Positions 886 through 62,106 of a stretch of 64,000 bases of DNA are shown here, in pieces; position 1 is the stretch's first letter; each line of letters begins with the position of its first letter. The stretch comes from Apostichopus japonicus (lineage: Eukaryota; Echinodermata; Holothuroidea; Aspidochirotida; Stichopodidae). The notes beneath the pieces are model-generated. The model was not told where the DNA came from, searched no databases, and saw only the letters and a program-made list of their open reading frames with translations. Made by a program: the position numbers and the translations under genes. Where the stretch lies: positions 13,381,513 through 13,445,512 of the forward strand of contig NC_092577.1 in the NCBI RefSeq assembly GCF_037975245.1, in the 5' to 3' direction.

Positions 886-1866
886 CTATATTATCAGCCT
901 GTGGTGCCCTAAGAAAACAATTGCATCTTTAACTTTCTGCTTTGACCTGACATAAGAAAAGAAGGCCTTTGGGTTATCCTTAATTTTTAGGGCAATGCTT
1001 TTTTCGAAATTCAATTTTGCATCAGAGACTAAGCATTCTACCTTCAGCTGATGGATTTTAAACTTGGCCAAAAGAGATTCAGACTTAGTCCTCCTAAACA
1101 ACTTCCACATTCTACGTTTTAGCCTAATTGCACATCTAACTTTCTTATTCATCCAGTGAGGCATACTGCTTTTACGGCGACGATTCTTCCACGGAACATG
1201 ATTTTCCATAATGACCTTTAATTTATCAGCAAAACAAATCCAAGACTGAGAAGCACTCATATCTCTAAACAAATTAATCCAATCTGTACCCTTTAGTAAA
1301 GTTTCAATTGCCTCTGTATCTGATCTCGAAAAATCAGGGACTTTTTCATTGCTAACAGAATTTACGACTTTGCAAACAACATCAAAAGCTAGTATATAAT
1401 GATCACTAGTTCCTAGTTTTCCTAGACCCGTCAAATCAACCACATTGCTTGGATTAGAACTCAAAACAAGATCCAGGATGTTATTCCCCCCCCCCCCCCT
1501 AGTAGGGAAAGTAACATGTTGATGTAAAAAGCAATCTTGCACAACATCTAGAAAATTACTACCCTTCCTACTACTAGAACCATCTATCCAATTAATGTCA
1601 GGAAAATTAAAGTCGCCCATTATAACAACATCACCTTTAGCAGCCTTTCTAATTGAATCAAACAGCACGGCATCATTATCATCGCTGCTGTTAGGAGAAC
1701 GGTAAACAACACCCACAGTGATAACGTCCCTGGACCTCTTGGAGTTGTTTGTGGACAACTCGCACCAGACAGAATTAACAAAAGCCCCTTGCAACTGAGA
1801 TTTCTCAACACTTACAATGTCATCCCTGTTTTGCTTAACTGTTACCAAGTATAAATTTAAACAAAC
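886..1866 (-). pseudogene. LINE endonuclease C-terminal half plus linker
   Basis: The frame shows VGVVYRSPNSS, GDVVIMGDFNFPDINW (the conserved GDFN catalytic motif), NILDLVLSS and the TSDHY active-site segment, all typical of exonuclease-endonuclease-phosphatase domains in LINEs. A basic linker then leads to the RT. A run of C bases at 1492-1499 encodes a glycine stretch. The frame is open back into the NXPE-like exon, so a naive gene finder would call one 517-residue chimera. The first 190 or so codons of that call are host sequence; the rest is LINE. Confidence 0.88.
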
Positions 1867-2400
1867 CTTTGGAGGTCTTTCAGAGCAATCGACATTTTCT
1901 GCCCGCTTCACCCCAGCATCATCTATCATCTCAAACTCTCCCACGTAATTATGGGCGTAAGATCGTTGACCGTCTAAAGAAGGGCTGAACAATGGGATCG
2001 CCTCCGCTGGGTGAACCAGTAATACCTCGATGTTCATCAAACCTTCCCATAGCAAAGGGAATGACGCCAGATAGGTACCGTTGCGGTAATCGACGAATTT
2101 ATCGGCGATTACCGCCGCATAAGGAACTCTAGAGAACAGCTTTATCCTAAAGAAGTCTTCACCGTATAGCTTTGGTCGGTTAAGATTATCCATGGCTTCA
2201 ATTCGGATGATTATTCTATCACATAAACCATATCGCAGTTTGGGATTTATAAGAGTTACTTTGGTAAAGTTAGGACTGGTAACATTGTCGAAGGGAAGCG
2301 TTTTCATCGGCACTCGGTTTGTAGATCTGATTGGCTGAAAGTTAAACCGGTCGGGGACGTCAGGGGAACATGCAACAGGATGATGGGCCTTGGGTTCAAA
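1867..2400 (-). CDS. NXPE/neurexophilin-like gene, exon 2 (178 codons, phase 0-0)
   Basis: The exon starts after a pyrimidine-rich acceptor ending in CTACAAG and begins TTT GAA CCC. It encodes the N-terminal part of a neurexophilin/NXPE domain: NFTKVTLINPKL, CDRIIIRIEAMD, YAAVIADKFVDYRNGTY and the SFPLLWEG...IEVLLVHPAEAI core. In this family the domain lies in secreted or Golgi-luminal proteins; the biochemical role is unclear here. The likely donor is CCAAAG|GTTTGT at 1867/1866, giving exactly 178 codons and phase 0. Exon 1 (9265-9456) also ends in phase 0. Later exons would lie left of the window. The reading frame stays open past the donor into a LINE, so the end is inferred. The alternative is that the LINE sits inside the exon and has broken the gene. 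Confidence 0.8.
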
Positions 2401-3289
2401 CTTGTAGAGAGAAAGAGAAATAGTTGTAAATAAAGACAAAACAAAGATAAGAAATAGTAATAAGTAACTGAAATGTTATAAGCGCAAAGAATTATGACAT
2501 ATTGTAGAACAAACAATTTTGACTAATTTTAATAAATAAAATGATATGAAATGTCAGTCATCAGCTTCATTATTACGTCATCACGACAATTTGAGGCAAA
2601 TTTGACATGATAATGGGAGATATCAAGAACGGACTACAACGTGTAATTTGTCAAACTTGGAAATCTGATATTAGCAACTTGAAATAAATAATCCTAGAAC
2701 CAAGGTGATTACTTTGACTTAAGAGGTGGGAACCAGTGGGCCATTCGCCCACTCCGCCTCCCAACACCTCACCTCCCATCGTCAGTGGAAAAGTTCCGTC
2801 GAGGGATTTTTACATTCACCCGAGGAAGAATTAGATAATTGCTATACGGATGTACCTCCCCCCTCCTCCTCTACTATTCAACATTCACCCCTACAACTCG
2901 CCAGGGTATTTATAACCACAGTCATTCGTTTAGAGCCAATTAAAACCCTGATCCATGTAAAAGATGACTCAGAATGCAAAATTTGACGTGTAAACTTTCA
3001 TTCTGTGAATATAGACACACCTACACTGGAGTCGGCCATGCATCTCCTTCATAAATCCTTGCTTCGCCTCTGGCCCTTCAGAGGAAATTTATAACTCCTA
3101 GAATAGTGATAAAACTTCTATCTGCCACCACCGAGATTAGAACCAAGGCCAAGGACCTCGAAAACGACTTTAAAACTTAGCCCGTGGTCATTGGTAACTT
3201 GTCACACCCACACACCAAAGTGTGGACAATTCCAACCATCCCAAAATGGGGCACTTCAATGCAACACGTCTACATGTTCACTTGGGGGG
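2401..3289. other. Intron of the NXPE-like gene, no gene seen
   Basis: No exon-like frame with splice sites was found. A stretch near 2735-2880 shares short blocks with 13640-13790 (for example around GAAGAATTAGA followed by a TGTAC-containing segment), which suggests an old dispersed repeat. Confidence 0.4.
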
Positions 3290-8325: not shown

Positions 8326-8497
<172 letters not shown>

Positions 8498-8524
8498 AAT
8501 AAATAAAGATCAACACACCAGAAA

Positions 8525-8584
8525 AATTCCACTTCACGACCGGTTTCGTCATTTTTTGGGACTCATCAGGCGAAGGTAGGAATC
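8525..8584 (-). ncRNA. Hammerhead ribozyme, type I, copy 1
   Basis: Minus-strand core: CUGAUGA at about 8572-8566, stem II GUC...GAC with a mismatch, GAAA, then CCGGUC with the predicted cut between 8538 and 8537. Stem I pairs the CCUUCGC side with GUGAAG(U)GG. Stem II is weaker than in the other copies, so activity is less certain. Stem III is only the self-complementary ACCGGU. Confidence 0.8.
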
Positions 8585-8835
8585 GAACCACTCGACCTAC
8601 AGTGATTTTACTGGTATGTGAATGCGTATAAACTGGCTATGTATATATAACTGTCAATGAGGGCGCATTACCCAAGTGTTATGATTGTACAGAGTGCACC
8701 CCTGGTGCTTTTAATCTGACAATTTACCCAGAATTACCCCTTATTATAGGCATGCCAAGCCGTAAACAAGAAATGAAAGTGTAGCAATGGTATCACAGAT
8801 ATATAGTAAATAAATAAAGATCATCACACCAGAAA

Positions 8836-8895
8836 AATTCCACTTCACGACCAGTTTCGTCCCTTTAAAGGACTCATCAGGCGAAGGTAGAAATC
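8836..8895 (-). ncRNA. Hammerhead ribozyme, type I, copy 2
   Basis: Minus-strand core: CUGAUGA, stem II GUCC/GGAC closed by an AU-rich loop, GAAA, then CUGGUC with the predicted cut between 8849 and 8848. Stem I pairs ACCUUCGC with GUGAAGUGG. Stem III is ACUGGU, the ACCGGU palindrome with one change that leaves a G-U pair in a dimer. All invariant core bases are present. Confidence 0.85.
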
Positions 8896-9264
8896 TAACC
8901 CCGTATCTTGTGTCACAGACCGAAGGCCGCACCACTCGACCTACAGTGATTTTACTGGTATGTGAATGCGTATAAACTGGCTATGTATATATAACTGTCA
9001 ATGAGGGCGCATTACCCAAGTGTTATGATTGTACAGAGTGCACCCCTGGTGCTTTTAATCTGACAATTTACACAGAATTACCACTTATTATAGGCATGCC
9101 AAGCCAAGCCGTAAATTAGAAATGAAAGTGTAGCTATATATCTCTGTCATACCACTTGCTACCCATTTATTTCTTATAAATATATATATGTATATAAAAA
9201 ATATATTTATTCTTCTCATATATTTTATTAGTTTTGTTGAAGCGATTTTGTAAAAGCAACTTAC

Positions 9265-14673: not shown

Positions 14674-15203
14674 TGGACGCTAGGGTTATTATGCGGTAAA
14701 TTATATAATGAAATATAAAAGTACGTCACTCACCTCAAACACTATAGTCCTTTTTGCGCTAGGTCGCCGTCTCGTACGAACCCTACAGACAGGCTCCAAT
14801 GAAAAATCCAAACACAAATCCAAATATCGAAATCCTAATCCATAAAAACAATGTTATTCGCCCGGAAGTGGGGGCAACACATATCCGATTTGATATGGAA
14901 TAAAAATAGGGAAAAACAATAAAGGTTTTTCGTTCAAGCGTAAATTCGTCGTAAAATATGTAATCGTTGTCGAGTCGTTGAATATCGTAATCCAAGTCGT
15001 AGTCGTAAGTAGCTATATCTTCTTTCACTGTGTGAAAGATTTCGCTTATCGTTCGTCAGAAATAAAACTATCCATTGTTTTATCGAAACCAATGTCTCTT
15101 GACCCAGTATGAGTCATGACATTGATGAAGTTATTATTGAGCGTAATTAATCTTCTGAAAATGAGGGCGCACTTCCGATTTAGTAAAAGTGAAGTCCTCT
15201 ACA
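14674..15203 (-). repeat. 3' LTR of the Ty3/gypsy element (full length, about 530 bp)
   Basis: The plus-strand left end TGGACGCTAGGGTTATTATG and the following 172 bp repeat at 19003-19174. The right border is ...CTCTACA, directly before the polypurine tract, so in element sense the LTR starts TGTAGAGG and ends near CCA. Confidence 0.85.
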
Positions 15204-15216
15204 TAGCCCCCTTCCA
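15204..15216 (-). other. Polypurine tract of the gypsy element
   Basis: On the minus strand GGAAGGGGGCTA lies directly before the 3' LTR, the usual place for second-strand priming. Confidence 0.75.
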
Positions 15217-15286
15217 GATCACTCGCGAAAAAGAGTGATCGATAAGAAAACATAACGTAAAATATAATACATGTATACACAGTTCT

Positions 15287-18111
15287 TCACCTATATCGCA
15301 CTGGCCAATGAACCCGCCCACCTGATCGCGTAACGGTCTTTGGCTTGGGGTCAGGCTGTATGTGTCCGGTGGGCGTATCGTCCGAGTGGCGTGTCTTGGT
15401 TGAAAGTTCGTCGTTCTCGAAAGAGGACGTGGGCAAAGTATTCGGTTCGGTCGGTTCCACAAGTTCATCTTCTTCAGCATACGCGACCTTTAACCTGCCA
15501 ATCGACACTGCGTCATGTTTGCAATTGATGTCCAATACAAATGTTTTGTCCCCCCTGGAAATGACACGGAAAGGCCCTCAGTACGGAGGTTGCAGTGGAC
15601 GTTTCACTGAATCAACTCTGACCCAAACGTGTGTGCAGTGCTGAAGATCGTCGGACTGCTGCGCACGCCGTTGATTTGGCCTGGTATCGGTCCGTTTTAA
15701 ATCGGCCATCTGTCGTTTCAGGCGGTCGACGAAAATTGTAGGATCCAGCTCATTCACGTCAGGAACAGGAGATACCAGCTGACATGGCACGCGAAGAGTA
15801 GTACCGAAAACTAATTCCGCTGCACTGCACCCGAGGTCGGCTTTCAGCGTTGTACGTATGCCTAACAAAACAAGTGGCAAAACCTCGGCCCACTTGGAAG
15901 GATCTCGTTGAGCTTTGATGGATGATTTGAGATGCCTATGGAAGCGTTCCACAAGCCCGTTGGATATCAGGTGATACGCAGTCGTACGTATTCGTTTGCT
16001 GCCGAGAAGAGCGGTCAGCTGTTTGAACAGAGCAGATTCGAATTGAGCGCCTCTATCCGTCGTTATAGTCGATGGTACACCGAAAGTGGAAATCCATCTG
16101 GTGACAAATGCTTCAGCTACGGTCTGGGCAGTGATATCTGGAATACAGATTGCTTCCGGCCAACGAGTGAAGCGGTCGATAACGGTGAGGAGGTATTTGT
16201 ATCCTCTTGACGGTGGGAGTGGGCCCACAATGTCCAAATGAATGTGTTCCGTGTTGCTCTGATTCCAGGATGCGACATGGAGTGAAGTGAATTAAAAATG
16301 TCTTTCCGAAACACCTTCGGTATAAACGGTCGAGGTAAACCGGTTAACATATCACACCATATCGTGCCAGGTGATGATGGGAGCGAAATCTCCTGAAATT
16401 TCATGACAGGGGAGTCCTTCAATTCCTGAAGCTGAATGTCATGCTGTTGTTTTGCAGCGATTTGAGCAAAGTCAATCAGGGTAGATGAGGGCAAACCTTG
16501 ACGGAATGCGTTAACGCCTAAACGAGACAGTGCGTCTGCGACGACATTGTCCTTTCCACTGACGTGGCGAATATCCGCCGTGAACTGGGAAACGAAATCC
16601 AGATGCCGTATCTCTCTCGGTGAGTAGCGGTCGGTACTAGTTTTTAACGCATATGTTATTGGTTTGTGGTCGGTGAGAATGAAGAATTGTCGTCCCTCTA
16701 GTATATGGCGGAAATGTTGTATTGCCGAGTATATTGCTAGTAGCTCACGACCAAACGCACTGTATCGCGATTCTGTCTCGCTTAGTTTTCGGGAGAAAAA
16801 CGAGATTGGATGCCAAACTCCTTCAATATTTTGCTGTAACACGCCTCCTAAGGCTTTGTCCGAGGCGTCCACTATTAATGAAAGGGGTTTGGATGAGTCG
16901 GAATGCGTAAGGACAGTTGCGTTGGCGAGCGCTCGTTTGTTCTCCTCGAATGAGTCGGATGCCTCGTACTGACACTTAGTTGGATTGATCACAACTCCGT
17001 AATCTGCGAGTCTGGCAAACAGCTGTTTAAGGTGACGGGTATGTTCCTCTGGAGATTTGCTGGACACGAGTACGTCATCAATGTAAGTGTAGCAAAATGG
17101 CAAACCGCGCGTTACCTCGTCTATGAAGCGTTGGAACGTCTGGGCGGCATTACGGAGTCCAAACGGCATTCGTTTAAATTCGAAGAGGCCGAATGGGGTT
17201 GTGATGGCCGTTTTTCAAATATCGGAGTCTTCCACCGGGATTTGATGGTAGGCTCGCACTAGATCAATTTTGGAATAAATTGATGTTCCCGAGAGTGAAG
17301 TTGAAAAGTCGTGAATTTGTGGAATAGGGTAGCGGTCTGGAATGGTAACGTTGTTTAGGGCTCGATAATCGCCACATGGCCTCCAATCACCGTTCTTTTT
17401 GGCCACCATGTGTAGAGGGGATGACCAATTACTGTTAGATTGTCGGACGATCCCAAGTTGCAGCATGTGGTCGAATTCTTGTCGAGCGATAGTTAGCTTG
17501 TTGGGCGGTAGACGACGTGTGCGAGAAAAAACGGGTGCTCCGATCGTGTTAATATAGTGCGTTACCGAATGTTTCACCTGGGTTTCTTCAAAAGTTACCC
17601 GCAATATCTCTGGGAATTCCTTTAATAGAGCATGATAAGGTGAATTGTTAGGTGTTGTGGCAATCATCGGACAAAGGGACGTTTCTTCGGTTGAGATGCC
17701 TTCAATAGTGAGATTGGTTAACCTGTCGATAAGTGTATTATTTCGAATATCGACAAGTAATCCAAAATATCGTAAGAAATCACAACCGAGAACAGCAGTT
17801 TCCACGTCGGCGATCACAAAGACCCACGGAAAGTTCCTACGCAAACCAATATCGAGTGTTAGTGACTTGTGCCCGAAAGTGTCTATTTTGGTCCGATTTG
17901 CCGCTTGAAGATATGGCCCCTTTCCACGATTATATAAGTCACAACGTACGGGGGGTACCACACTGACCGCTGCCCCTGTATCAATGAGAAAACGTTTCGT
18001 GGTGGTTCTGTCACGAATGTAAAACAGGCGGCTTCGATTTTGGCCAACGCTCGCCACCGTTACACGCTGGCCTGTTCGTTTTCCGACTTTAAATTGCTTG
18101 GATACTTGCAT
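15287..18111 (-). pseudogene. Ty3/gypsy pol: protease, RT, RNase H, integrase (degraded)
   Basis: Domains in order: protease ([12 protein letters not shown], about 17975), RT (YIDDVLV, about 17070), RNase H (LTDHKPITYAL, about 16660), integrase zinc-binding start (HPGIRAT, about 16265), integrase core with DIVGP, TTDRG and VERFHR, and a basic tail ending RWPVRYR-like (HWPVRYR). One frame runs through, with in-frame TGA stops at 17215-17217 and 15578-15580. Sequence is missing after KCQY (RT thumb/connection) and after HPGIRAT (rest of the zinc-binding domain). Pol overlaps gag by about 52 nt in the -1 frame. Confidence 0.9.
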
Positions 18112-18887
18112 GGCGCTCTACATTTCCTGGCCTTATCACCAAATGATTGATGATGCCAACAAATATCACTGTCGATGTTGCTGGTATTATTTGACTGGGA
18201 ACTGAATCTTTGTCGGCTTCGAGATCGGCTTCGACTGCGTTCCCTGACCTCTGACTTTGGTGAAGCAATTTGGGCAGTGAGTTCACGGACTTGTTCACTT
18301 AGTTGTTGCACTTCTGATTGTTGTGCCTGGGCTTGGGGTGTTTGTATGGCAGCGATGGGAGGATATGCAGGAGTTACTTCCATGATTTTATCCGCTAACT
18401 CGGCTACGGTTTCGATAGGTGTGGTGTCGCTCATTGACGCCAGAATTAGTTGGGCGCTCGATGGAAGTCGCCGAACAAAAAGTTATTTCAAAATGTTCGC
18501 ATCAAGGGTGTTTGTACCTAGCAGCTGACGAATTTTGCGCAACAGTTGCGTGGGTTTTCGATCCCCCAATTCTTCCGAAATTAACATCTGGTGGAGCCGT
18601 TTTTGCTCCAAAGCCGTTGTTCGCTTAATCAACTCCTCCTTCAGTTTTTGATAGGGTCGGTCGCTTGGCTTACTTATGAGCAAGTCGCGTACTTCCTGAG
18701 CTATTTCCGGTTGTAGGGACGATATCACGTAGGAATATTTTGTATCCTCGTTAGTAACTCTCCTTGTTACGAATTGCGCCTCGACCTGGGCAAACCAGAT
18801 AATTGGGTCATTGGGCCAGTACGGAGTTAATTTAATACTAACTGTGGATAGCGATTGTTGTGTTTCGTGTGAATTTTCTGGATCCAT
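18060..18887 (-). pseudogene. Ty3/gypsy gag with zinc knuckle
   Basis: The likely start is ATG at 18887 (MDPENS). A matrix/capsid-like part contains PYWPNDPIIWFAQVEAQF, then a QA-rich linker, an RS-rich basic segment (RSRSRSRSRQR) and a Cys/His knuckle [18 protein letters not shown]. An in-frame TAA at 18483-18485 interrupts the frame. The frame ends at 18060 inside the start of pol. Confidence 0.85.
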
Positions 18888-18980
18888 GATGTACAGTATA
18901 ATATTATTCCAATGCGAAAAACAGTAGTAAAAAGTTATGCGATTTTTAGTACATTGGAAGTATTCAAGGCAACCTAGCTG

Positions 18981-18999
18981 AATCACGTCGGGGTCACCA
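18981..18999 (-). other. Primer binding site of the gypsy element
   Basis: The minus-strand TGGTGACCCCGACGTGATT starts three bases after the 5' LTR remnant. The TGG start complements a tRNA CCA end. The tRNA was not identified. Confidence 0.75.
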
Positions 19000-19002
19000 C
19001 TT

Positions 19003-23418: not shown

Positions 23419-23503
<85 letters not shown>

Positions 23504-23739
23504 GTGGAATTTTTCTGGTGTGTAATTCTTTATTGATTTACTATATATCTGTCATACCACTTGCTACACATTCAATTCTTATTTACGGCTTGGCTTGCCT
23601 ATAAAGAGTGGTTATTCTGTGTAAAATTGTCAGATTCAAAGCGCCAGGGGTGCACTCTGTACAATCATAACACTTGGGTAATACGCCCTTAATGACAGTT
23701 ATTCAAAAGCCAATTTATACGCTTTAACACACCAGTAGA

Positions 23740-23802
23740 ATCATTGTGGTCGAGTGGTACAGACTTCGATTCGTGACACAAAGATCTGGGGTTCGATTCC
23801 CA
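23740..23802 (+). other. tRNA-like segment with pol III A and B boxes
   Basis: A box TGGTCGAGTGGT at 23747-23758 and a perfect B box GGTTCGATTCC at 23790-23800. The B box runs straight into stem I of the ribozyme. The first TTTTT downstream (23851-23855) lies 12 nt past the cut site and could terminate pol III. The arms do not form a complete tRNA, so this is not a functional tRNA gene. Confidence 0.75.
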
Positions 23803-23856
23803 CCTTCGTCTGATGAGTCCCAAAAGGACGAAACCGGTCGTGAAGTGGAATTTTTC
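23794..23856 (+). ncRNA. Hammerhead ribozyme, type I, copy 3 (best preserved)
   Basis: CUGAUGA at 23810-23816, stem II GUCC-CAAAA-GGAC, GAAA at 23830-23833, CCGGUC ending at 23839 with the predicted cut at 23839/23840. Stem I pairs UUCCCACCUUCGU with GUGAAGUGGAA (about 11 pairs, two bulged C). Every invariant base of the hammerhead core is present. Stem III is ACCGGU with no loop, so it can pair only between two molecules or two tandem units. Confidence 0.9.
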
Positions 23857-24074
23857 TGGTGTGCTATTCTTTATTGATATATATTGATATATATATATAT
23901 ATATATATTGATATATATATATATATATATATATACAAATATATACATGTATAACATACATACACACACACAGATACATAAATTCATTAACTTCTTCTAT
24001 ACTCTTACAAATGTGTGTAATTACCACCACCTGCCTCTGAAGGTCGGAAAAAGAATTTAAAAACTTAAACAATT

Positions 24075-44738
<20,664 letters not shown>

Positions 44739-59433: not shown

Positions 59434-60085
59434 CTGGTGAAAGAATAAGGTGAGGTGAAGATAGTAGTGAGATGAAGTCCAATATGTTTATTGATCAAAC
59501 AACGTAACATTCGTACCTTTATAAACACAGCGTATTTCTAGCAATGCATATCTGAAGCTTGTATTCAGGGGACGGATCCAGGATTTAAAAAAAGAGGGTG
59601 TGTGGCCGTGTGGTCGTTGATGCCGATTCCCACGTGACCCACGAGCGTGAAGGATTCCTTTAAGGCTAAATTAAATCTTTAATTAGATCGACACGCACGA
59701 TTGTGCTTATAACTACCTTTAATATTATGTTTGGGTCGAACGGGGGGGGGGGGGGGGTTGGAACGGTTGGGTTTGGTAAACCTCCGCACCTGGTAACCGC
59801 AACATTTAAAAAGGGAATATATACCGTCAACGGTACACAAAGTATAAATTAAATAAACTCAAATATATCTTTCACGTAATCAATGGTTTACTTTTAGCCA
59901 ATTAAGATTGGTTCTATAAATTATCAGATAAAATCGCATACATATACGTTACAGAGTAGTTCCATATTATCGCATACAGCTTACAGCTCTAGATGCGTAA
60001 TTCATTACTGCCATATCATTGCATTCCCATAAAACGTTGCTTTTGTGTGGTAGGAAGAGTAACAAGTGGCATATATAGTCTTTAC

Positions 60086-60267
60086 CTCTCGGCACTTCCT
60101 CAAGAAGTTGAGTAAATCTCCAAATTGCATATATTCAGTGATCAGGTAAAAAGGTTCTCTCCTTGAACAGCAGGCAACAAGGGACATGATATTTCTGTGT
60201 TCTCCAAGTGAGGAGAGTAACTTCATTTCATCTAAGAGGTCTTCATTAGCCTCGGCGAAAGCGCCGA
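60086..60267 (-). CDS. RTK-B exon 8
   Basis: Helix C and hinge, same peptide as RTK-A. Confidence 0.93.
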
Positions 60268-61270
60268 CTGTGAAGAAGTGTAAAATAAAAACGTACTATA
60301 AACGAATGCAATTACAACATCTTTGGACATGAAATGCAAAATACAGGGAATATTCTTTCCATTCTTTCAAACATAGTTCGACATGGTTCTAAATCGAATT
60401 GTATCCCAAAGGGATACATTGTGACGGAAGCAAAGTAAAGAGCTATTTATATGATCAGCAATCCCATATGAATAAAGCCTGTGAATTTCCAGGATATCAA
60501 TTGGAGAATAATTTCCTCCGAGAAATAATGTAATGTTAATTCATAAATAGAAAACTAATTTGGTCAAATTATCAACACATTTGTCAGAGCAGAGAATGTT
60601 TGAGACGAACAGCACGATCTGACAGTGGCCTAGCAGGAAACAACAGGGCAATTATAGCAGTTATAGAAATTCGTCCTCAAAGGAGATTCAACATTCACAC
60701 GATCCCAACCATGGTTTGGGCTTTAAGTGAGAGATTACGAATACCAGGTACTTCTATACTCCTGAATATGGCATGCACTCTCAGGCCCTACAGACAACAC
60801 AGGGTCCCGACGGGCGTCTCCAGCGAGATGGGTGGTTACTTTTTCAGTCATTGTCACCGTGCACCCCCCCCCCCTCCCCCCGCATTGGTGACGCCGTGGC
60901 CACTGATTTCTTGGCTACCTCAAAACTCTCATAAGAGCTGTAGTACGGCATCGAACACGAGGAGTCGAACTCTTGTCTTTGATATGTCTCGCACTGGAGA
61001 CTGAATCCACACAATTCCGCAAGTATTTATTTCTTTTCTTTGAAAATGCTAGCTATTTATTTGCTTACGTCTGTTAAGACATCCTTTTCTTGGGCGGAAA
61101 ATCAAATGACTGAATGATTATGAAGCCTCTGTAGATTTGTAATAATGTGTGAAACTAACATAACATATTAATATGGAAAAAAAAACATAACAAGCTGCTT
61201 GAAATCTCTGTTCTAATCTTTCTCTGTTTCAGAACTACTAAATATACGTTATACGGGAAATGCAAAATAC

Positions 61271-61501
61271 CTTTTGTGGTTTTAACAGCGACAGCCATAT
61301 TGTCAGGATAACCAATGAGTCCAGTGATAACTCCCTTATACACAACACCGAATTCACCTTTTCCGAGTTCTTCTTTTAGGGTGACTTGACAGAGGTTTAT
61401 CTCCTTGGATTTTAGTAGAGGTTCCACATCTCTGGTGTTCTCTGTAAATATTATAGTCTTCCTAACATAATTGTTACGGAACAAACGATACACATGGCAT
61501 A
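61271..61501 (-). CDS. RTK-B exon 7
   Basis: Juxtamembrane and glycine loop, same peptide as RTK-A. Confidence 0.93.
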
Positions 61502-61893
61502 CTGTTGAAAAAGGAGTGATTATTCAAGCGGCTCTATCGTTCTTATCCATAGTTATTCACGGAAGTCATTCAAAATGGATGCAACAACACGTTTTTTGAC
61601 GGGCACGCAAAATTACTAATAGATGGGAAATGGCTTCCACGAATTTACAAATATATGTTTTTGTTTTACAGGTCATAGAACGAATTCTTCTACAAGGGCA
61701 CGGAAAGGTGTCTTCTGCAAGAACACGGAACACCAGTGGCACGGGAATAAGTCTTCTAAAAGGCAAGGAGCAAAATGAACTAAATTTGACTTCATGATTA
61801 CGGAAGAACAATTTATCTGTCCACCTATATATGAAGAATTTTGCAACTTAATGATGACTAAGAATGAAAAAGACAGAAGTGAAAAGAGCATAC

Positions 61894-62028
61894 CCAACTG
61901 GATACGAACAGTCTGGTAAAGTCTCCTTCTTTTAACGAGAAAAAAGAGTATCAGACTCAACAGTAAGACCAGAATGACTGTAAGACAGACAACCAGTAGG
62001 AGACTGTTTGGTGCAACTGCAACTGAAG
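61894..62028 (-). CDS. RTK-B exon 6: transmembrane segment
   Basis: Same peptide and splice sites as RTK-A. The ectodomain exons of RTK-B would lie past 64000; the next acceptor is expected within about 500 bp of the edge. Confidence 0.92.
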
Positions 62029-62106
62029 CTATGAATAATATATAATGGTACTCAGTAAACCGGAAATTGTTAGCATGTGTTGAAAGAGATTATAAACATA
62101 ACCTGT

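Follow-up and report, generated by a model that had tools for sequence, protein, structure and literature searches.

The subject of this analysis is a repeat of about 340 bp in which promoter boxes of the RNA polymerase III (pol III) type run into a type I hammerhead ribozyme. Two copies, A and B, are present in a 64,000-nucleotide stretch of the sea cucumber Apostichopus japonicus (contig NC_092577.1, positions 13,381,513 to 13,445,512 of the forward strand; referred to as the window). We consider it likely that the repeat is a non-autonomous, non-coding retroelement, namely a metazoan retrozyme with a pol III promoter head like that of a short interspersed element (SINE), which is copied in trans by Penelope-like elements (PLEs). 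The footprint evidence for what moves this element is new. Across about 100 sampled loci, its ends preserve a record of PLE-type starts at two positions inside the RNA; the same ends are seen in a PLE of this genome.

Abundance and sampling

The genome (671.6 Mb) was searched for three patterns of the element with at most three mismatches. The junction between B box and hammerhead was found at 638 places, the hammerhead core at 576 and the A-box head at 570, while the reversed controls gave 0 each. A similarity search with the element resulted in at least 95 matches (40 of 1189 candidates scored). A scan with the Rfam model RF00163 resulted in 59 matches among 74 scored candidates, 50 of them above the cut-off (best 46.7 bits), and these numbers count hammerheads irrespective of their fusion to the boxes. 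All of 10 further loci that were picked for their nearness to the consensus have a hammerhead match (best per locus, E 3e-9 to 1.5e-6).

Apart from the window copies, 98 loci were sampled, 39 from the similarity search (L009-L047) and 59 from the first 100 listed junction places (L048-L106); junction places near already sampled loci were omitted. Because L048-L106 match the B-box/hammerhead pattern exactly, conservation was restricted to a set of 41 unselected loci, consisting of the 39 similarity-search loci and both window copies. The sample includes near-duplicates (L021/L023, L097-L099, several on C1, and L046 with a window copy).

The element has a GC content of 42%, and the longest open stretch across three tandem units is 62 codons, so that it is non-coding. 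One-strand arrays reach at least one unit in 50 of 100 loci and at least two units in 2; the longest has about 2.6 units. A preliminary description, made from the window alone, had proposed that the repeat is a small retroelement without coding capacity that includes a type I hammerhead, and had expected further copies of the box/ribozyme fusion. Both are supported by the 638 junction places against 0 in the reversed control, the hundreds of dispersed copies with fixed 3' and scattered 5' ends, and the lack of any frame above 62 codons.

Insertion ends and target sites

Positions within the unit are numbered from u1, the first nucleotide 3' of the hammerhead cleavage site. The 100 loci provided 134 3' ends, 98 of which fall into two clusters, 58 at u45-54 (48 of these exactly at u50) and 40 at u72-87. 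The 5' ends (n = 66) are scattered, and only 2 are near the cleavage site. Of the 100 loci, 86 have a (TA)n tract next to the element on one side or both, and 38 have one on each side, compared to 10/200 and 0/200 among control pairs. These tracts might in part be a product of slippage after insertion.

Contiguous head-to-head copies occur at 31 loci, and in these, both outer ends are 3' ends. When ends at u42-58 are classified as short (S) and those at u68-97 as extended (X), 17 of these loci have two classifiable ends. One short and one extended end are combined in 15 of them, with a single short/short and a single extended/extended locus (p 0.0012 against 50%). The end pattern, the (TA)n targets and the asymmetry between short and extended ends are hallmarks of PLEs. 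The footprint of a PLE includes outer ends that are both 3' ends with one of them extended, as seen in 15 of the 17 loci, and an AT-rich target, as seen in 86 of the 100. A connection to Penelope had been mentioned in the preliminary description as background only, and it is now supported by these insertion footprints.

Penelope-like elements of the same genome

A genome search for GIY-YIG resulted in at least 37 matches, with 150 candidates scored. In one PLE (L107), a frame of 910 aa combines RVT_1 with GIY-YIG. Copies of this PLE are arranged head-to-head and are identical over 2196 bp; one ends 29 nt beyond the other, and both 3' ends are located in (TA)n. When its last 322 bp were compared to the genome, 42 matches were listed (40 of 79 candidates scored). 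Among these, 24 end at query positions 281-284 by hand count (short), 16 at 322, which is also the end of the query (long), and 2 at 276-278. Five adjacent -/+ pairs are among the listed matches, and each has one long and one short end. The short and long ends are 52 and 81 nt past GAAACGUC, respectively. For the hammerhead of L107 itself, there is no Rfam match at E<=1; only the GAAACGUC half is recognizable, and no activity is claimed. A second PLE family has the motif CUGAAGA...CGAAAGCUC, which is intact in 5 of 12 fetched PLE 3' regions (L108, L109, L116, L117 and L118) and altered in L114 and L119. Its short end is 46 nt (L116) and its long end 124 nt (L108, L109) past the motif.

The spacing from the hammerhead cut to the short and long ends is thus about 50 and 72-87 nt in the retrozyme, 52 and 81 nt in L107, and 46 and 124 nt in the second family. 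Retrozyme and PLEs have a common layout, in which the hammerhead is followed after about 50 nt by the short end and then by an extension up to the long end, with (TA)n as target, but the letters differ. At L112 (457-730), one TA-rich tract has a retrozyme copy on one side (87% consensus identity over 187 columns) and, on the other, a PLE piece with 100% identity to L107 over 339 bp. Other repeats, with the antisense B-box-like sequences GGGATTCGAACC and GGGAATCGAACC, are located beside (TA)n at PLE 3' ends (L109 635-930 and L110 660-730, respectively); these are possibly additional SINEs that occupy a similar type of site.

Published PLEs behave similarly. The purified enzyme from an anole PLE cuts and extends both strands, preferring AT-rich DNA, and it starts at two adjacent internal RNA sites that bound an optional tail of 30-40 bp (PMC11167929). 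The hammerhead of that PLE cuts 26 bp past the start codon, and the commonest start is 111-118 bp into the open reading frame (ORF) (PMC11167929). Subtraction gives a cut-to-start distance of 85-92 nt, to be compared with 72-87 nt for the long end of the retrozyme. For a rotifer Penelope, a 31-bp tail was found to be optional at one of the inverted pseudo-long terminal repeats (pLTRs), and head-to-head is the commonest arrangement (PMC3846280).

The two copies in the window

The features of both copies are listed in Table 1. The hammerhead of copy A (23804-23845, plus strand) matches RF00163 with 34.9 bits (gathering threshold 34, E 5.7e-5), and this is the only match in the window that reaches the gathering threshold. 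All core bases are present, and stem II has 4 bp, as read from the sequence. The HH9 model has a below-gathering match at 23793-23860 (threshold E<=1). A degenerate A...B pattern occurs a single time in the window, counting both strands together, and is absent from 100 first-order Markov replicates. The preliminary description had thus been right in placing an A box from 23747 and a B box at 23790-23800, directly beside a type I hammerhead with a complete core; the arm of the B box extends into stem I.

Its term "tRNA-like" for the head is justified as far as two promoter boxes and a T-arm are concerned, but ARAGORN, applied to the window and to 15 other loci, detected no tRNA, and the tRNA model of Rfam has no match at E<=10 in 23700-23890. 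The best match there is to tRNA-Sec (13 bits, E 5.1). Thus, no tRNA parent of the head is claimed. Release of a unit-length circle from copy A by itself was also rejected, because this copy has a single hammerhead and starts at u5.

Copy B had been described as an inverted array at 8496-9170 with the same fusion. The array is real and has two hammerheads. Its bounds are, however, those of a minus-strand array plus an inverted stub, and the box fusion is damaged in both units: the interval between A and B box is missing from one, the B box of the other is mutated, and the degenerate A...B pattern is found in neither. Covariance-model matches had been expected at three sites; one passes the gathering threshold, while two are below it, although with E <1e-3.

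Table 1. Features of retrozyme copies A and B in the window (positions count from the first nucleotide of the window)
Feature	Position	Strand	Remarks
Retrozyme-SINE copy A	23503..23881	+	1.11 units, u5 to u42 of the next unit; short (S-type) 3' end
Pol III-type A box TGGTCGAGTGG	23747..23757	+	2.2% divergence in 41 unselected loci, vs 4.7% in body
Pol III-type B box GGTTCGATTCC	23790..23800	+	conservation no better than body
3' strand of B-box/T-arm, also 5' strand of hammerhead stem I	23796..23809	+	sequence reading and HH9 alignment
Type I hammerhead	23804..23845	+	cleavage predicted at 23839/23840; stem III is ACCGGU only
T5 run, pol III terminator-like	23851..23855	+	only T4+ run in consensus unit
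TAACACACCAG, inverted-repeat arm closing the predicted rod fold of the unit	23725..23735	+	partner u17-27
(TA)n tract, left flank of copy A	23425..23502		
(TA)n-rich tract, right flank of copy A	23882..23935		
Copy B, array of about 1.9 units	8488..9134	-	u65 round to u50; short (S) 3' end at 8488
Copy B hammerhead 1	8517..8586	-	HH9 model, 34.3 bits (gathering 52), E 7.4e-5; below gathering
Copy B hammerhead 2	8843..8886	-	RF00163, 31.4 bits (gathering 34), E 7.7e-4; below gathering
Head-to-head inverted stub of copy B	9137..9177	+	41 bp, u44-u84; extended (X) 3' end

The hammerhead ribozyme

Among the 41 unselected loci, 37 retain an intact hammerhead core; among all 100, 83 do, and 18 have at least two intact cores. 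Divergence affects 32 of 1099 core positions, as against 383 of 8213 body positions (p 0.008; copies that are related do not count as independent). A CG is located between GAAAC and GUC in 94 of 104 cores, which reduces stem III to the palindrome ACCGGU. Since this palindrome is all there is of stem III, cleavage probably requires a dimer of hammerheads. According to the fold prediction, two consensus copies form a double hammerhead, and the copy at 8522-8586 does likewise. The whole consensus unit is predicted to fold better than 100 of 100 shuffled sequences (z -3.29), whereas the isolated hammerhead (z -0.11), the head and the tail segments do not fold better than shuffles.

Promoter boxes and transcription

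The A box diverges at 16 of 713 positions in the unselected loci, less than the body of the unit (p 0.0017; the copies are non-independent, and 3 A-box positions fall within u88-250, the range taken as body). Divergence is faster between the boxes (180/2192) than in the body, from which the B box does not differ (35/783). The boxes have the spacing of pol III promoters, as in a tRNA-derived SINE, while the recognizable tRNA similarity of such a SINE is missing. In a tRNA search of the same genome, 57 of 61 listed matches were in a single cluster of about 16 kb (G000 C3:17760905-17776764).

Transcription by pol III from the A and B boxes is plausible, judging from the sequence. The T5 run, however, is at u12-16, that is 12-16 nt past the cleavage site, and is kept in 80 of 84 matched instances, so that pol III should stop before a full unit is made. 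The transcript would most simply extend from the head through the hammerhead to the T run; with an estimated length of about 120 nt, it would be too short for a unit. RNA of a whole unit would thus have to come from read-through or from another polymerase. Four copies end at u15-18, within or beside the T5 run (L036, L087, L096 and L112), and these might derive from terminated pol III RNA.

Template and proposed cycle

Units within a locus are more similar to each other (median identity 94.8%, 64 pairs) than units from different loci (90.9%, 1562 pairs), although indels in a unit bring some pairs from the same locus down to 57%. At one locus (L014), six overlaps of at least 95 nt are identical, including that with an inverted segment, and two of 87 nt are 98.9% identical. 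From this likeness, we infer that one RNA, or identical RNAs, fed each insertion. Because copies span the cleavage site, the template would be either a circle or an uncut multimer, and both fit equally well.

We propose the following cycle. A multi-unit locus would be transcribed from the A and B boxes or by read-through, and the multimeric RNA would then be cut at its hammerheads, probably pairwise as a dimer, as predicted from a stem III that lacks a proper loop. The unit RNA may be re-ligated to a circle that is spared for want of a partner, but an uncut multimer would serve equally. A PLE protein would cut both strands at (TA)n, and reverse transcription would start internally, either some 50 nt or some 72-87 nt downstream of the cut; the start positions are taken from the copy ends, and the enzyme is a presumed one. 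The cDNA would pass the hammerhead site and stop anywhere, as the copies indicate, having covered at least one unit in half of the sampled loci. With both strands being extended, two cDNAs would meet head-to-head, usually one with a short and one with an extended end. This structure is found in the copies, while the order of events is our suggestion.

One may speculate further that the element is a Penelope-dependent SINE, in which one RNA segment has several roles. The A/B head would recruit pol III, the 3' strand of the T-arm would also form stem I, and the hammerhead would be positioned about 50 nt upstream of a PLE-type start. The tRNA-like arm and the ribozyme would then be mutually exclusive, because they use the same strand. 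A ribozyme that is active only as a dimer would cut multimers and spare monomer circles, which would be a stable, endless template for the PLE. We consider this extended version tentative and rather doubtful.

Alternative explanations

Several observations weigh against a PLE-moved retrozyme with a pol III head. More than a quarter of the 3' ends (36/134) are outside both clusters. The asymmetry in 15 of 17 head-to-head loci depends on S and X ranges that were fixed after the histogram had been inspected, and 14 of the 31 loci are unclassifiable because at least one end is outside these ranges; some loci are near-duplicates (e.g., L021/L023), and because u46-50 reads TATAT, the short end can be placed only to within a few nucleotides. 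The 3' end of the retrozyme has no significant similarity to the PLE 3' regions fetched, which represent some families of this genome. Shuffled sequences aligned as well in 169 of 1000 cases locally and in 64 of 1000 globally; words in the same register are limited to the hexamer TGCTAC at offset 1 (P 0.12) and TTTACTAT within 10 (P 0.09); and blastn against twelve PLE 3' regions gave one 13-nt match (E 0.24). A pattern that combines a PLE-type hammerhead end with the retrozyme tail was found at 23 places, all with 3 mismatches and without a sign of a PLE. Because no 3' sequence is shared, no specific PLE family is assigned as partner. The T5 run and the absent tRNA match disfavor simple pol III transcription of whole units. 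The fold prediction yields no active dimer for 23793-23856 and 8830-8897, both of them copies in the window. In addition, hammerhead mutants of the anole PLE insert normally in vitro, with unprocessed RNA being the main substrate (PMC11167929); as the ribozyme is dispensable there and uncut RNA is used, a circle is not required.

The element could be an ordinary SINE with a tRNA-type promoter that is moved by a long interspersed element (LINE) and contains the hammerhead incidentally. The A and B boxes fit, and LINE pieces are present in the window. The (TA)n would then be a tail or a slippage product, and the head-to-head arrangement would be attributed to twin priming. Twin priming by LINEs does yield inverted 5' ends, but only one end, not both, is then at the 3' end of the element. 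In this element, the two outer ends are 3' ends alike and combine a short with an extended one in 15 of the 17 classifiable loci, as in the L107-type PLE; TA is found on both sides in 38 of 100 loci; and there is no poly-A, with AAAA runs only inside the unit. We regard a LINE-moved SINE as unlikely. The spread of satellite DNA by unequal crossing-over or DNA circles, without any retroelement, would account for tandem units. It was rejected as hardly conceivable, because copies are dispersed genome-wide, one-strand arrays never exceed about 2.6 units in 100 loci, and 3' ends are fixed while 5' ends vary.

Two further alternatives concern parts of the element. The retrozyme may be moved by a PLE while its A and B boxes are a relic, the RNA being provided by pol II or by read-through, which a 2020 review assumes for retrozymes (PMC7761336). 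The conserved T5 run directly after the hammerhead, the B box that is conserved no better than the body, and the lack of a tRNA match by ARAGORN or Rfam all agree with this. The slow A box next to a fast inter-box stretch argues against it, as do the few copies that end at the T5 run, as terminated pol III RNA would. We see this as a close call, falling slightly short of an even chance. The hammerhead, in turn, might be a chance or dead motif without activity. This would fit the minimal stem III, the isolated segment that folds like its shuffles and the window copy without a predicted active dimer. The core, however, diverges more slowly than the body, 37 of the 41 unselected loci have kept it whole, and 50 genome matches among the 74 scored candidates are above the Rfam cut-off. 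A dead hammerhead is therefore considered very unlikely.

Relation to known systems

A tRNA-derived element with a hammerhead, retrozymes and PLE hammerheads are all already known. The precedent is set by Sm-alpha and Sj-alpha, SINE-like schistosome elements of about 335 bp with a tRNA-derived head and a hammerhead (PMC2770079, PMC4918200, PMC8490949). By their published descriptions, they share with the element reported here a promoter head, the hammerhead and a similar repeat length. Unlike here, where no tRNA model matches, Sm-alpha has a recognizable tRNA-Gln in its head (tRNA-Glu according to one legend).

Metazoan non-LTR retrozymes have type I hammerheads and non-coding, highly self-paired tandem units of 150-450 bp with low GC (PMC7229834, PMC7761336). 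The element agrees with this description in its type I hammerhead, its short non-coding tandem units with a GC content below 50%, its self-paired unit and the presence of PLEs in the same genome. It differs by its internal A and B boxes and its PLE-type insertion ends. According to the 2020 review, retrozymes seem to be promoterless and devoid of a motif that would indicate the partner element (PMC7761336), while PLEs have been named as likely candidates for copying them (PMC7229834, PMC7761336). The transcribing machinery and the autonomous copying element of animal retrozymes were thus left open in 2020. With the RNA and the start sites now defined, trans-mobilization by PLEs can be tested directly. 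Should it be true, PLEs have SINE-like parasites, as LINEs do. A search of the open-access literature found no paper in which a retrozyme is linked to ends of the PLE type or in which the present element is described.

With PLEs that have a pLTR, a tail and a minimal hammerhead (PMC11167929, PMC3846280), the element shares tandem and head-to-head copies, a one-sided extension, AT-rich targets, two internal start sites for reverse transcriptase (RT), and a short end that follows the hammerhead by about 50 nt. It is, however, only 340 bp long, has no ORF with RT and GIY-YIG as found in autonomous PLEs, and has no 3' sequence in common with the PLEs compared. Being non-coding, it is not a PLE itself, but it may use one. 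Hammerhead repeats of newt and axolotl and the mini-hammerheads of PLEs act as dimers and have a very short stem III (PMC7229834, PMC7761336), which is similar to the dimer predicted here. In contrast to all of these, the element has a long bulged stem I that is supplied by the arm of the B box.

Further features of the window

A tyrosine-kinase gene is represented by two nearly identical sets of exon-like frames on the minus strand (29969-32000 and 60005-62090), about 30 kb apart, which suggests a recent duplication. In a single open frame at 886-2475 (minus strand), a neurexophilin-like domain (E 7.5e-7) precedes a LINE endonuclease domain (E 1.6e-15); it looks as though part of a LINE shared the reading frame of a neurexophilin-like exon. 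The region 15199-19001 (minus strand) contains pieces of an LTR retrotransposon, namely reverse transcriptase, RNase H and integrase core.
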